Origin: Pleurocapsa sp. FMAR1
GTDB lineage: Bacteria > Cyanobacteriota > Cyanobacteriia > Cyanobacteriales > Xenococcaceae
Direction of reading: 5' to 3'
NCBI RefSeq assembly: GCF_963665995.1
Contig: NZ_OY762512.1
Span: forward strand, 4,898,001-4,962,000
Length of the DNA: 64,000 nucleotides
The notes beneath the pieces are model-generated. The model worked only from the letters and a program-made list of their open reading frames with translations, searched no databases and had not been told where the DNA came from. How positions within the stretch are numbered: position 1 is the stretch's first letter; each line of letters begins with the position of its first letter. Below, piece by piece: positions 33,420-40,906 of this stretch. Position numbers and translations under genes: made by a program.

Positions 33420-33659
33420 AGAGATGTAATCTCATTTGATGGCAGAACAGTAGATGAGTTGAAACAGTCTTTTGAAGCTGTGATTGATGAATATTTAGAA
33501 GACTGTAAAAAAGAAGGCAAAGAGCCAGACAAGCCATTCTCTGGTCAATTCAACTTACGTATTACACCTGAATTGCATCGTCAAATAACTCTCAAAGCAA
33601 AAAAACAAAATGTCAGCCTCAACACTTTTGTTGAGCAAGCATTAGAAAGAATAGTTTAA
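33420..33659 (+). pseudogene. HicB-type antitoxin, N-terminally truncated
   Basis: From 33420 the frame reads RDVISFDGRTVDELKQSFEA, then DDYLE-like and EGKEPDKPFSGQFNLRITPE, ending in an Arc-like ribbon-helix-helix (HRQITLKAKKQ, SLNTFVEQALERIV). This is the HicB antitoxin layout minus its first 25-30 residues; the DNA before it is repeat-like and lacks a start in a good position. An internal TTG at 33459 could still initiate a 66-residue DNA-binding fragment. No hicA toxin gene is adjacent. Confidence 0.6.
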
Positions 33660-33996: not shown

Positions 33997-34350
33997 ATGA
34001 AGATAATCGATCTCAATCAGCGTTTTGAAATTCAACCAATTCAATTGCAGAAAATTTGTCAGCAATGGCAAATTACCGAACTTGCTCTATTTGGATCGGT
34101 GTTGAGAGATGATTTTAAGCCTCAAAGCGATATAGACCTTTTGGTAAGCTTTGCCGAAGATGCGAAGATTACTTTTTTCGATCTCGACACGATTGAAGCG
34201 CAATTTAGCAGGCTGTTTAATCGACAGGTCGATCTTGTTACTAAGCGATCGATAGAACAAAGTCACAATTGGATACGTAAACAAAACATTCTCAATCACG
34301 CCAAGATTATCTATGAACAAAGATCGAGAAATACTTCTAGATCTTATTAG
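33997..34350 (+). CDS. mntA: MntA-type minimal nucleotidyltransferase antitoxin
   Basis: A 117-residue protein with the polymerase-beta nucleotidyltransferase signature Gly33-Ser34-x10-Asp45-x-Asp47 (FGSVLRDDF...SDIDLLV). In MNT/HEPN systems this antitoxin adds AMP to a tyrosine of the HEPN RNase. The motif here is intact. The gene overlaps the following HEPN gene by 38 bases, supporting a coupled pair. Confidence 0.85.
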   Translation: MKIIDLNQRFEIQPIQLQKICQQWQITELALFGSVLRDDFKPQSDIDLLVSFAEDAKITFFDLDTIEAQFSRLFNRQVDLVTKRSIEQSHNWIRKQNILNHAKIIYEQRSRNTSRSY

Positions 34351-34639
34351 AGCTTGTCAACTAAGTATTCAATTTTGTGCAGATTTAGATTGGCAAGCTT
34401 TTGCACAAGATCTTAAGACTCAATCATCAGTACTGTATCAAATTGTGATTATTGGTGAAGCGGTAAATAGACTATCTTCAGGCTTTATTGCTAACAATCC
34501 ACAGATTCCTATTCGGCAAATTAAAGGAATGCGTAATCGGATTGTTCATAAATATAAAGAAGTAGATTTAAAAGTTCTTTGGGAAGCTATGCAGACAAGT
34601 ATTCCTGAATTACTCAAAGAACTAGAAAGAATAAATTAG
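34313..34639 (+). CDS. hepT: HepT-type HEPN ribonuclease toxin (DUF86)
   Basis: A 108-residue helical HEPN protein with the catalytic R-x4-H-x-Y motif at Arg74, His79 and Tyr81 (RNRIVHKY). HEPN toxins cleave RNA, and the motif Tyr is the AMPylation target of MntA. Both components appear intact, so this TA system may be active. Confidence 0.87.
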   Translation: MNKDREILLDLIRACQLSIQFCADLDWQAFAQDLKTQSSVLYQIVIIGEAVNRLSSGFIANNPQIPIRQIKGMRNRIVHKYKEVDLKVLWEAMQTSIPELLKELERIN

Positions 34640-36931: not shown

Positions 36932-37065
36932 AGTTTGAAATGCTATCAATCCCAAAAAGATAACAGCAATTTTTTATTATGGCTTGAGTATTATTAAGCT
37001 AAGTTAGCAATACCAACCGAAATTGACTTTTCCATTTATCAACACCAAATACCATTCAATAAGTT

Positions 37066-37491
37066 CCCCCCAAGTGGGGGGCTAGGGGGGCGAAATAATC
37101 GCCTTAATCTGTTCCAAAACCCAAGGCAAATCATTCAATACTTGTTTATTACTGAATCTCAATACTTTATAACCGTGTTCTTCTAATTTATCGGTTCTAG
37201 CGCGATCGCGATCTGTTTGTTGATTGTGAATTTCTCCGTCAACTTCCACAACCAATTTACAAGAAGCGCAATAAAAATCTAAGATAAAATTTCCTACAGG
37301 ATGCTGGCGACGAAACCGTAACCCTTCTAGCTGTTTGTTTTTCAAGGCTGACCATAAATGTGTCTCTGCGGTCGTTAAGTTCTTTCTTAATCTCCGCGCA
37401 GCCTCTTCTATTTCGGGAGTTGTCCCACGAATTCTTGGTTTGTAGTTCATAAATAAATAGCCCCCTAAATCCCCCAAGCATGGGGGACTTT
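37066..37491. repeat. C/G-rich inverted arms enclosing the DUF559 gene
   Basis: The left arm (37066-37093) runs CCCCCCAAGTGGGGGG then CTAGGGGGGCG, preceded by ACCATTCAAT. The right arm (37459-37491) runs AGCCCCCTAAATCCCCC then AAGCATGGGGGACTT. These are the two half-sites that, with a 9-24 bp spacer in place of the gene, make up each unit of the array at 37461-39500. The gene's stop codon TAG lies in the left arm and an alternative start ATG at 37477 lies in the right arm. Confidence 0.7.
37082..37450 (-). CDS. DUF559 (VSR-like) endonuclease-domain protein
   Basis: A 122-residue protein from ATG 37450 (MNYKPRIRGTTPEIEEAARR); ATG 37477 inside the repeat arm would add nine residues. Features of DUF559 are present: LTTAETHLWSALKNKQLEGL, the FRRQHPVGNFILDFYC block, LVVEVDGEIH with the probable catalytic Asp/Glu, and YKVLRFSNKQVL. 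It resembles very-short-patch-repair and PD-(D/E)XK-type nucleases. The last codons (SPP-stop) are supplied by the repeat. It has no operon partner. Its biochemical role is not known; the enclosing repeats suggest involvement in repeat mobility. Confidence 0.85.
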   Translation of the reverse strand: MNYKPRIRGTTPEIEEAARRLRKNLTTAETHLWSALKNKQLEGLRFRRQHPVGNFILDFYCASCKLVVEVDGEIHNQQTDRDRARTDKLEEHGYKVLRFSNKQVLNDLPWVLEQIKAIISPP

Positions 37492-39500
37492 TAGTTTAAC
37501 TTCTGACTCGATAATTAAGGCGATCGCATCACCCATCAACTAACATCAAGCACCATTCAACCTATTCCCCCCAAACTTGGGGGGCTAGGGGGGCGAAATA
37601 CCGATGTGTATATTTAACCGCCCCCTAAATCCCCCACGCTTGGGGGACTTTCAGTTTAACTTCTGACTCGATAATTAAGGCGATCGCATCACCCATCAAC
37701 TAACATCAAGCACCATTCAACCTATTCCCCCCAAACTTGGGGGGCTAGGGGGGCGAAATACCGATGTGTATATTTAACCGCCCCCTAAATCCCCCACGCT
37801 TGGGGGACTTTCAGTTTAACTTCTGACTCGATAATTAAGGCGATCGCACCACCCATCAATTAACATCAAACACCATTCAACCTATTCCCCCCATACTAGG
37901 GGGGCTTGGGGGGCAAAATGATTTAACCGCCCCCTAAATCCCCCACGCTTGGGGGACTTTTAGTTTAACTTCTGACTCGATAATTAAGGCGATCGCATTA
38001 CCCATCAATTAACATCAAACACCATTCAATCGTTCCCCCCAAACTTGGGGGGCTAGGGGGGCGAAATGCCGATGTGCATATTTAACCGCCCCCTAAATCC
38101 CCCACGCTTGGGGGACTTTCAGTTTAACTTCTGACTCGATAATTAAGGCGATCGCACCATCCATTCATCAACATCAAACATCATTCAATCGTTCCCCCCA
38201 TACTTGGGGGGCTAGGGGGGCGGAATGCCGATGTGCATATTTAACCGCCCCCTAAATCCCCCACGCTTGGGGGACTTTTAATTTAACTTCTTTCTCTGAG
38301 AATTAAGGCGATCGCATCACCCATCAACTAACATCAAGCACCATTCAACCTATTCCCCCCATACTTGGGGGCTTGGGGGGCGAAATGCCGATGTGCATAT
38401 TTAACCGCCCCCTAAATCCCCCACGCTTGGGGGACTTTTAATTTAACTGTTGACCCGAAAATGACCAAACGCGATCGCACCATCCATTCATCAACATCAA
38501 ACACCATTCAATCGTTCCCCCCATACTTGGGGGGCTAGGGGGGCGGAATGCCGATGTGCATATTTAACCGCCCCCTAAATCCCCCAAGCCTGGGGGACTT
38601 TTAATTTAACTTCTGACTTGATAATTAAAGCGATCGCACCACCCATCAATTAACATCAAACACCATTCAATCGTTCCCCCCATACTTGGGGGGCTTGGGG
38701 GGCAAAATGATTTAACTGCCCCCTAAATCCCCCAAGCATGGGGGACTTTCAGTTTAACTGTTGACCCGAAAATGACCAAACGCGATCGCACCACCCATCA
38801 ATTAACATCAAACACCATTCAATCGTTCCCCCCAAACTTGGGGGGCTAGGGGGGCGGAATGCCGATGTGCATATTTAACCGCCCCCTAAATCCCCCAAAC
38901 CTGGGGGACTTTTAATTTAACTGTTGACCCGAAAACCATCAAGCGCGATCGCACCACCCATCAATTAACATCAAACACCATTCAATCGTTCCCCCCAAAC
39001 TTGGGGGGCTAGGGGGGCGGAATGCCGATGTGCATATTTAACCGCCCCCTAAATCCCCCAAACCTGGGGGACTTTTAATTTAACTGTTGACCCGAAAACC
39101 ATCAAGCGCGATCGCACCATCCATTCATCAACATCAAACACCATTCAATCGTTCCCCCCATACTTGGGGGGCTTGGGGGGCAAAATGATTTAACTGCCCC
39201 CTAAATCCCCCAAACCTGGGGGACTTTTAATTTAACTATTGACCCGAAAATGACCAAACGCGATCGCACCACCCATCAATTAACATCAAACACCATTCAA
39301 TCGTTCCCCCCAAACTTGGGGGGCTAGGGGGGCGGAATGCCGATGTGCATATTTAACTGCCCCCTAAATCCCCCAAACCTGGGGGACTTTTAATTTAACT
39401 ATTGACCCGAAAACCATCAAGCGCGATCGCACCACCCATCAATCAACATCAAACACCATTCAATCTGTTCCCCCCATACTTGGGGGGCTAGGGGGGCAAA
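37461..39500. repeat. Tandem array of 13 units of 148-163 bp
   Basis: CCCCCTAAATCCCCC occurs at 37461, 37621, 37781, 37930, 38089, 38248, 38408, 38571, 38719, 38882, 39045, 39197 and 39360. Each unit contains a CCCCCA/TGGGGG hairpin, a variable linker with one HIP1 site, CACCATTCAAT-like sequence, a CCCCCCAA/TTGGGGGG hairpin and CTAGGGGGGC. Units come in two lengths: about 160 bp with a CGATGTGCATAT spacer and about 150 bp with CAAAATGATT. Two linker forms exist (CTGACTCGATAATTAAG and TTGACCCGAAAATGACC). The forms are mixed along the array. No CRISPR-like unique spacers exist. Confidence 0.92.
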
Positions 39501-39711
39501 CAAAACCATTAATTTAATCTTCTTCAAAGATACATAATAAATGTGATTTAGATCGCTGTTAATACTATTAGTTATTACTAGCAAACATTCCTAAAAAAAC
39601 TTTTTTAATGATGATATGTTTTGTTGATCGCCTGGGTAATTTCTAAGTAGGAAAGAAAAACCTAAAACAAACACACAAAACACAAACTCTTATTAATTGA
39701 AGGATATAACC
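39501..39711. other. Probable promoter region of the pilin cluster
   Basis: A 211-base AT-rich gap between the end of the array and the first pilin start. A ribosome-binding GAAGGA lies about 12 bases before ATG 39712. No clear -10/-35 was fixed. Confidence 0.4.
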
Positions 39712-40290
39712 ATGAATAACGTATTTACTGCTAAATTATTACAAAACCTACGTAACAAAAAAGGCAAAAAGGTTTTACATTAATCGAACTATTAGTTGTT
39801 GTAATCATTATCGGTGTATTGGCTGCTGTTGCTCTACCTAACCTACTAGGTCAAGTTGCTAAAGGAAGACAAGCTGAAGCGAAAAACAACCTCGGTGCAA
39901 TTAACCGCGCTCAACAAGCTCATCGTTTAGAAACTGGAAATTTTGGAGTGATTCAACTTGTTAACGTGGCTGCTGCTGTTGCTCCTATTGGTACTCCCCC
40001 TACTGGTGGATCTCCTGCTAGGTACTTATGGGTATTACTGGTAGTAACTATACTTACACCGATTTAGGCTACTTCAACTTCAGTCCAAGCTTAGCTCAAG
40101 GAGCAACCGCTAAGCCACTTATGAAAACGACATCTTAGACTACACTGCTGCTGTAGGTCAACAAAGCGATGGTACATTTCGGTCAATTGTTGTGAATCAA
40201 ACGCAGTCAACGGTGCTACTGACCTATTGCAGCAAGCCAGGTACTGCTACTGCTGCTCCTGCCTGTCTTGGTGCCTCCACTGCACTATAA
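39712..40290 (+). pseudogene. Type IV pilin (PilA-like), broken by indels
   Basis: The prepilin start MNNVFTAKLLQNLRNKK is in one frame and the class III signal region G-FTLIELLVVVIIIGVLAAV in another; the break is at AAAAAGGTTTT (about 39771), where an extra G would restore GKKGFTLIE. The later frame order (YTYTDLGYFNFSPSLAQGA, DYTAAVGQQSDGTFRSIV and a C-terminal Cys-containing end) needs at least four further single-base corrections, most being one base missing in a short homopolymer. Restored, it would be a pilin of about 190 residues with the usual N-terminal hydrophobic helix. It is followed by a strong terminator. It may be a pseudogene or a sequence error. Confidence 0.75.
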
Positions 40291-40318
40291 TTAGCTTGAT
40301 ACTAAATAGTTTAATAAA

Positions 40319-40354
40319 AGAGCATTTTATATAAATAAAATGCTCTTTTTTTTT
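40319..40354 (+). terminator. Rho-independent terminator after the first pilin
   Basis: AGAGCATTTTAT (40319-40330) and ATAAAATGCTCT (40335-40346) form a 12-bp perfect stem with a 4-base loop, followed by eight T. Confidence 0.9.
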
Positions 40355-40400
40355 ACTTAAAAACTTTATATAAAATACAATTAAAATATAAGATGAACTT

Positions 40401-40906
40401 ATGTTCAAATTATTAAAAAACTATTTGATAACTCCAGACTTAAAAAAACCAGGGTTTACTTTAATTGAATTATTAGTTGTAGTAATTATTATTGGTGTTT
40501 TGGTGCTATTGCCTTACCAAATCTTCTCGACAAGTAGAAAAAAGTAGGCAAGCCGAAGCAAAAATAAATTTCGGTGCTATTAATAGAGTTCAACAAGGTT
40601 ATCGTTTTGAAAATGGAACTTTTACTACTTTAAACTAATTTGCCAGCTCGTCTTTACAGGTAAATATTACACTTATGCTGATATCGGAACTCCAAATGCT
40701 CAAGGAGCAGTTAATATAGCAACAGTCATAGGTTCTTTGAAAATGAGATCAAAGATTATTCTTCTGCTGTAGGTCAAACTACATCTGGTGCTTATATAGG
40801 AATAGTCTGCGAACAAAATACTGTTGATGGTGCAATCGCACCAATTCCTGCTACTGTTACTGCTGGTGTTCCTGCTTGCACTTCTGGCACTACTCAAATT
40901 TTTTAA
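40401..40906 (+). pseudogene. Second type IV pilin-like gene, broken by indels
   Basis: It begins MFKLLKNYLITPDLKKPGFT and continues LIELLVVVIIIGVL, an intact prepilin signal with the conserved Glu5. It then breaks at TTTTGGTGC, where one more G would give GVLGAIALPNLL. Further shifts are needed near 40530 (CTCGACAAG), 40635-40660, and 40737 (TCTTTGAAA). The downstream frames read QAEAKINFGAINRVQQGYRF, YTYADIGTPNAQGAVNIATV and a Cys-containing C-terminus, so it was a full-length pilin paralogue of the upstream gene. Confidence 0.72.

Follow-up and report, generated by a model that had tools for sequence, protein, structure and literature searches.

Results

A DUF559 gene and an array sharing its arms

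The window, a stretch of 64,000 nucleotides, is a portion of the 5.43-Mb single-contig genome of Pleurocapsa sp. FMAR1 (G000). It holds a small DUF559 gene between two hairpin-bearing arms, followed by a tandem array of gene-less units and a pilin-like gene:

37064..37095, + strand: left arm, a hairpin and then a G-run tail towards the gene, with the stop codon inside (CCCCCC-loop-GGGGGG-CTA-GGGGGGC)
37082..37450, - strand: DUF559 gene (Vsr/EDxHD-like nuclease; PF04480, E 3.5e-39; 122 aa from the ATG at 37450)
37459..37493, + strand: right arm, a C-run tail towards the gene and then a hairpin (GCCCCC-TAAAT-CCCCC-loop-GGGGG-ACTTT)
37487..37567, + strand: outer segment of the unit, with a HIP1 site (GCGATCGC)
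37565..39497, + strand: tandem array of 12 gene-less units of about 150-163 bp with arms as at the gene, plus a final left-type arm
39560..40760, + strand: pilin-like right neighbour (named from our own reading of its sequence), used as the marker for filled and empty versions of the locus

In a profile search the gene (L001) scored 133.5 bits against PF04480, for which the curated cut-off is 20.6, and it also matched PF18741 below the cut-off; a Y1_Tnp match was absent from it, so that no HUH/Y1 transposase lies between the arms. Its stop codon (TAG at 37084-37082) is located within the left arm, as an earlier, sequence-only reading of this DNA had stated. The same reading placed an alternative ATG at 37477 in the right arm, but the codon at 37477 is a TTG start, from which the protein would be 131 aa long; the ATG of the right arm, at 37481, begins another frame (74 aa), and the in-frame ATG is that at 37450.

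Pattern searches of the 64 kb recovered 13 right-type and 14 left-type arms, all at 37064-39497 and zero elsewhere (mean of 0.00 in 100 shuffles). The array has 12 complete units, each bounded by both arm types with a spacer of 25 bp (9 units) or 14 bp (3 units), and its last left-type arm lies at 39470-39497; the claim that the gene stands between the two arms that also bound every array unit held for 12 of 12 units, with 0 expected in shuffles. A whole unit folded into three stems, namely hairpin, tail-to-tail stem and hairpin (-25 kcal/mol, z -4.1; 0 of 200 shuffles equally stable), and the window gene occupies the loop position of the tail-to-tail stem. Single arms folded less convincingly, with z values of -3.0 and -1.1 for the gene arms and -1.9 and -0.8 for two array arms.

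The array, found at one place only in its genome, is a local tandem amplification of the site minus the gene, about 12-fold, upstream of the pilin-like gene. Its outer 78-bp segment has partial matches (23-85 nt) near DUF559 in related genomes (L025, L026, L027, L030), and its spacers have only about 6 nt in common with the left inner edge of the gene. For these reasons the array need not consist of deletion derivatives, and of the earlier proposal of an autonomous element accompanied by internally deleted derivatives, the element with terminal arms was supported while the derivation of the array by deletion is the weaker part.

Elsewhere in the window, a nucleotidyltransferase (PF01909) and a HepT-like (PF01934) gene form a pair at 33997-34639 that is likely a toxin-antitoxin module, and an ORF resembling HicB-family antitoxins (PF05534) lies at 33459-33659. 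A reading of the region as a defence island was set aside, PADLOC returning weak partial matches only (DpdF, E 3.7e-4 over 46 residues; mREase_II, E 0.0014).

The DUF559 protein family

A search of the PDB with the family profile returned 3hrl_A ('Endonuclease-Like Protein', E 2.5e-28) and 3r3p_A ('Mobile intron protein', E 4.4e-5), the latter being, as we take it, I-Bth0305I, an EDxHD homing endonuclease; PvuRts1I chains came next with a non-significant E of 0.05. Twelve columns were invariant in 53 sequences, including E38, D67, E78, D80, H84 and D91, and the conserved E/D/H/D residues presumably constitute the EDxHD motif and serve in catalysis.

Other copies in the same genome

The Pleurocapsa genome contains three DUF559 genes, which belong to three subfamilies, and by eye each has a different kind of arm: G/C runs with an A..T loop at the window gene, TT..AA loops with one side reduced at L003, and CCTCACCC...CTCTCC at L002. 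The last of these genes is in frame with a methyltransferase-type gene (open frame of 1139 aa; DUF1156 match). The window arm pattern gave 20 matches in the genome, 13 at the window locus and 7 elsewhere; by eye, L005, L019, L020 and L022 among the latter form complete units of two arms whose tails lie outside; the unit at L023 is compact, and L004 and L021 are single arms. Units at L019, L022 and L023 sit between MITE-type inverted repeats (by eye), and the gene-less units outside the window locus show the opposite order, with tails outside and hairpins inside.

Flanks of DUF559 genes across phyla

We compared flanks in a named set, the best 80 of 584 related stretches from one scan, which included Cyanobacteria, Bacteroidota, Chloroflexota, Pseudomonadota, Planctomycetota, Acidobacteriota, Myxococcota, Nitrospinae and Patescibacteria. 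The two flanks were alike at 44 of 77 DUF559 loci from this set versus 37 of 773 other ORFs at the same loci, in agreement with the expectation that arms lie at the ends of DUF559 genes above chance. Nor are unrelated genes flanked by DUF559 arms equally often: such arms stood at both ends of 2 of the 773 other ORFs, one of which was a second DUF559 gene, leaving 1 of 772. At one end or more, DUF559 arms of the same locus were found for 43 of 773 other ORFs versus 7 of 773 when arms of another locus were used, which indicates that gene-less arms are locally common. With a strict score for inverted-like flanks, the counts within the best 80 of 584 were 30 of 80 for DUF559 and 5 of 700 for control ORFs at those loci.

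A mixed rule, which accepts a locus with like flanks or with a hairpin at each end, was applied to four sets, leaving out 3 of 80 rows of the named set, 5 of 50 of the cyanobacterial set and 3 of 29 of a further Bacteroidota set. It was satisfied by 48 of 77 DUF559 loci of the named set (from the best 80 of 584), versus 26 of 697 control ORFs, and, against the same controls, by 26 of 45 loci of the cyanobacterial set and 24 of 41 loci comprising all listed copies of 14 genomes; since these genomes were chosen from the 80 named loci, 14 of the 41 repeat the named set. In the further Bacteroidota set the count was 14 of 26, these being the best-scoring loci of the sample and not a random draw. 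The existence of DUF559 genes elsewhere lacking such arms, which the sequence-only reading had named as a refutation, did not refute the association, yet 38-46% of the genes in the four sets fail the arm rule, and at L049 and L201 arms were not visible by eye. The rule misses some arms that the eye can see, those of L001 included, and a simple Smith-Waterman comparison of flanks scores arms too low when an indel distinguishes their halves, L001 being a case that fails it. The overall pattern seen from the window alone is, with these figures, true and general.

One ORF (L150, 19705-20032) had two almost identical flanks (score 100), which belong to an unrelated repeat.

Arm type and protein subfamily

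Among 60 relatives, 37 contained DUF559 at E 1e-6 (profile search). The flanks of 50 domains were read by eye, and this reading suggests that arm sequence varies with DUF559 subfamily. Protein identity and cross-end arm similarity were correlated (Mantel rho 0.386, 0 of 2000 permutations) in the 45 domains that were long enough, 5 short ones of the 50 being left out. A matched comparison of same-genome with other-genome arms, made with a cruder score, gave 9 of 19 and no support.

Within nine genomes with at least three copies, arm similarity tracked protein identity (0 of 5000 stratified within-genome permutations, with gentler gap costs), and in 39 of 55 cases from 19 genomes the left arm of a copy was matched by its own right arm no worse than by the right arm of any other copy. 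These within-genome comparisons used at most 46 of the available multi-copy loci beside single ones, and left out partial or weak second or third matches of G011, G037, G043 and G057. The best case was G073 (named locus: Pontibacter fetidus), in which eight copies each have their own matching arms (own scores 29-51); arms were in common mainly between the closest sisters (81%, 74% and 63% identity, with scores of 37, 54 and 28), and the other copy pairs had arm scores of 10-26.

Insertions within genes, filled and empty sites

Among the best-scoring 150 rows listed from 198 Bacteroidota genomes (84 with DUF559), 25 were located in frames of at least 600 aa. In a survey for host domains, 30 open frames were scanned. 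Eighteen had host domains on both sides of DUF559: LeuRS (L163, L177, L299, L302), IleRS (L189), RecG (L182), MetH (L107, L319, L325), riboflavin synthase (ribE, L095), HsdR (L121, L303, L305), an MmeI-type protein (L039), an Eco57I-type protein (L045) and Type ISP (L037, L098, L297). In nine a host domain was found on one side only: DUF1156 (L002), MmeI-type (L029), Eco57I (L041), Type ISP (L096), HsdM (L120, L313), an epimerase (L128), an N6/N4 methylase (L298) and a RecF/SMC-like protein with DUF559 at the frame start (L146). No host family was found for the remaining three (L103, L138, L300). In-frame insertions thus occur in at least ten host gene families, many of them of restriction-modification. 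An intein domain was not found in the 30 frames, which run open through the insert, and none of 10 loci had an Rfam match, introns included, at the gathering score.

In a tree built from 78 chosen rows over 101 columns, in which many forks stayed unresolved, the free or intragenic label changed 14 times, at least three of these changes being forced by well-supported branches, against a shuffled mean of 22.6. One supported clade of nine rows (99/88) united insertions in LeuRS, MetH, RecG, IleRS and the epimerase. The MetH insertions had at least two origins in the tree, both between the two B12-binding domains; those in Type_ISP_C recur around profile position 180-183 in genomes of a cyanobacterium, a member of Chloroflexota and one of Bacteroidota (L037, L096, L297), and those in HsdR near position 16 of SWI2_SNF2 in different phyla (L121, L305). 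For LeuRS, 2 loci were filled and 6 were without DUF559 among 8 aligned (2 of 10 were missed by the motif).

The LeuRS loop that holds DUF559 in other genera is a hot spot for in-frame palindromes: two of the six DUF559-free LeuRS genes (leuS of G061 and G066; L243, L247) carry small palindromic inserts of the CACCCTGAGCG..GTCGAAGGG type at this loop.

Empty and filled sites, expected among related strains, were found in same-genus relatives at two places, the window locus and the methyltransferase copy L002. The latter site is filled in G000 and empty, without arms, in the same-genus genomes G010, G002 and G008, whose host proteins are 95%, 92% and 92% identical over 220 residues. Three of the eight other matched genomes thus gave a readable junction; G013, of another genus, had an insertion at the site with the host gene broken, and the other four had no readable junction. 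The junction is not clean, about 24-27 bp of host sequence being different, and no target-site duplication was seen at L002, the sole filled/empty set aligned at the DNA level and a diverged one. Since the three empty sites of the same genus are without arms, arms and gene came to L002 together, or in two steps.

The window locus was tracked in relatives by its pilin-like neighbour. DUF559 lies within about 0.9 kb in G004, G008, G012 and G016; G005 has arms, with DUF559 1.8 kb away, and in G009 DUF559 is 2.5 kb away on the same contig, an arm being absent in 1.5 kb. Neither arm nor DUF559 was found upstream in G002, G006, G007 and G010 (about 1.5 kb searched) or in G011 (0.8 kb). These filled and empty versions show the element to be present in some members of the genus and absent from others, through gain, loss or both. 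DUF559 and its arms might have been mobile only in the past, with copies that are now mostly fossils at safe sites and a window array that reflects only slippage or recombination between repeats; the occurrence of the locus in common in G004, G008, G012 and G016, the copies with stops or truncations (L060, L062, L064, L065) and the confinement of the array to one place would fit this account, which we nevertheless consider most improbable, because genomes hold up to eight copies at separate places and of several subfamilies, and the similar-armed sisters in G073 suggest more recent activity.

The spot upstream of the pilin-like gene seems to attract such elements. In L282 (G015) and L284 (G014) a gene-less type-B arm pair is located upstream of this gene, where G000 has type-A arms and the array. 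At the same locus in G008 (L268), two copies of a different hairpin (CCCCCTGAATTGCGAGATTGGGGG) lie beside a DUF559 frame broken in two.

Gene-less arms, MITE-like repeats and Y1 genes

Arms also occur in genomes lacking DUF559 of the matching type, in 12 of 50 for type A and 12 of 47 for type B. Type-A arms were present in 9 of 10 A-type genomes versus these 12 of 50 others (p 1.6e-4), and type-B arms in 8 of 13 B-type genomes versus 12 of 47 others (p 0.02), both comparisons being confounded by kinship. Two genomes were rich in arms without DUF559 at E 1e-6, namely G027 (36 type-B arms) and G045 (12 type-A arms), and dispersed gene-less inverted arm pairs were found in G059 and G060 as well.

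In G004, 15 of 20 sampled arm sites were enclosed by the two ends of one MITE-like inverted repeat, and a further site had one end only; in G059, TACAGC/GCTGTA repeats were near 12 of 20 sampled sites and absent at 8. By eye, arm units are nested in about five MITE-like repeats in three genomes (L019, L022 and L023 of Pleurocapsa; L202-L241), the nesting inverted repeats being of the TAGGACTTACGCA, CCGTTCGGTTA, TACTAAATCC, AGAGGTTGTCTGAAAAGT and TACAGC..GCTGTA types. As many gene-less copies are nested inside such repeats, arms can travel as passengers, and the nesting itself suggests that arms insert, but can also be carried. The count of type-A arms per genome was dropped as main evidence for DUF559 activity on account of the MITE passengers in G004.

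Y1_Tnp genes were present in 54 of the 60 relatives. No Y1_Tnp match was found at E 1e-6 in G009 (91% complete) and G011 (99%), both of which have DUF559 and arms of the matching type. RAYT as the sole mobiliser, with which the presence of Y1 genes in 54 of 60 is compatible, was rejected in view of these two genomes.

The main rival to an element driven by DUF559 is that REP-like dimers were there first and are invaded by DUF559 as an endonuclease gene of homing type, with the arms serving as targets and flanking homology and being spread by Y1/RAYT transposases or MITEs. This would account for the two arrangements seen by eye, tails turned towards the gene at some loci and away from it at others, as if it had entered either kind of dimer, for the recurrent host sites (the MetH linker at least two independent times, Type_ISP_C in three phyla), for the mobile intron protein that is the next solved relative after 3hrl, and for the frequency of Y1_Tnp genes. 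We regard it as unlikely, because the empty L002 sites of three same-genus genomes have no arms, because G009 and G011 possess DUF559 and matching arms in spite of lacking a Y1_Tnp match, and because arm sequence follows DUF559 subfamily.

Discussion

Comparison of loci showed subfamily-matched arms at both ends of DUF559 in more than half of the loci tested, filled and empty sites, in-frame hosts and dispersed arms. Judged from sequences, the mobility of the DUF559 cassette together with its cognate arms is well supported and very probable, and DUF559 with two hairpin-tail arms probably represents a minimal mobile element of many phyla that is driven by the action of DUF559 on the arms. The DUF559 protein is a small nuclease with a single domain, of the Vsr/EDxHD type; it would recognise the hairpin arms of its own element and nick or break DNA there, and host repair may then copy arms and gene, or arms alone, to new places. 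Spread would be copying by break repair, in a homing-like manner, and not strand transfer by a classical transposase; arm sites without the gene would be non-autonomous partners, as REPINs are to RAYTs.

According to the accessible part of a study of Caulobacter (PMC12907096), the DUF559 protein VsrA is needed for the SOS/DNA-damage response of cells without the methyltransferase ScmA, which points to DNA damage in vivo, and its authors propose that VsrA is likely a mismatch-repair enzyme. That proposal would suit a different account, which treats the arms as nothing more than hairpins of MITEs or terminators and DUF559 as a Vsr-like accessory gene of mismatch repair or restriction that is there by chance; the many gene-less arms inside MITE-like repeats and the many intragenic copies in restriction-modification genes would suit it too. 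Such an account is very unlikely in the face of like flanks at 44 of 77 DUF559 loci versus 37 of 773 other ORFs and of a single ORF among 772 others that has DUF559 arms on both sides (loci from the best 80 of 584), of subfamily-specific arms within single genomes, and of insertions in leuS, ileS, recG, metH and ribE, which are not methylation genes.

The mobile element proposed here resembles several known systems. The earlier comparison with RAYT-REP pairs fits as logic: RAYT with its REPs or REPINs ('REPtron') is likewise a single small gene bracketed by hairpin-plus-tail repeats, with inverted repeat pairs dispersed gene-less and a repeat type that goes with the protein subtype. However, DUF559 is a Vsr/EDxHD-like nuclease whereas RAYT is an HUH/Y1 enzyme, the GTAG tag was not seen at DUF559 arms, whose tails are G/C runs or CGTC-like (by eye), and nuclease-bearing DUF559 insertions are found in frame within essential genes. 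EDxHD homing endonucleases (I-Bth0305I) have in common with DUF559 a related catalytic domain (E 4.4e-5), insertion in conserved genes and recurrent host sites, but DUF559 came without an intein (30 frames) or Rfam intron (10 loci), the in-frame insert stays in the protein, and the element carries hairpin arms that are also dispersed gene-less. Cyanobacterial MITEs are, like the arms, short, dispersed, hairpin-forming and gene-less; in contrast, each DUF559 arm adds a repeated tail to its hairpin and the arms go with a nuclease gene, and some are nested in MITE-like repeats. Literature mentioning DUF559 was covered by titles and abstract openings, with subscription papers and bioRxiv preprints mostly outside, and gave no treatment of DUF559 as part of a mobile element.

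The chances seem evenly balanced for a wider proposal, namely that a large class of mobile elements has gone unrecognised whose enzymes are the DUF559 proteins and whose spread depends on a Vsr/EDxHD nuclease acting on cognate hairpin arms and on no known transposase, that these elements generate much of the palindromic repeat load (orphan CGTC REPs, 'PPSPxGEG'-type in-frame insertions), and that they survive by residing, in frame and without being trimmed, in loops of essential enzymes. Among bacteria REP-like repeats are widespread, and in 2013, as the available part of a survey has it, no enzyme was assigned to one of their two large classes (PMC3733652). DUF559 would be a testable enzyme candidate for the enzyme-less REP class, and a role of this kind would explain a family of unknown function present in many phyla; a nuclease cassette that continues the reading frame of leuS, ileS, metH or recG and shows no sign of being spliced out would be an uncommonly described mode of life, and if the nuclease reads hairpin arms specifically, it could be a small and potentially retargetable DNA tool.

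In the part of the survey available, most REPs belong to the GTAG or the CGTC class, and the CGTC class is apparently without a dedicated transposase (Di Nocera 2013, PMC3733652). Some DUF559 arms have a CGTC unit, and in-frame intragenic copies occur both among DUF559 elements and among the CGTC REPs and Rickettsia palindromic elements of that source, but a dedicated enzyme is, in the same part, reported as not found there, whereas here DUF559 adjoins some CGTC arms (PMC3733652). Under the strict rule the unit is missing from most DUF559 arms, those of the window included. CGTC with a 6-11 bp stem and CCA, a looser unit than CGTC, 8-9 bp stem, 4-5 nt loop and CCA, was found in the arms of 9 of 150 fetched loci, corresponding to 6 of 136 distinct places since three of the nine are repeats from overlapping sets, versus 2 of 697 control ORFs; the positive arms were from Bacteroidota and one Acidobacteriota record. 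It is suggestive that DUF559 might perhaps be the missing enzyme of 'CGTC' REPs. In a search of genomes, a reversed control pattern gave two matches, both in G063, and the CGTC arm pattern occurred once each in G061 and G068, both times beside DUF559, 0 times in the other 11 genomes, and 11 times in Gelidibacter (G060), where one copy is beside DUF559 and the stems, by eye, vary but mostly stay paired.
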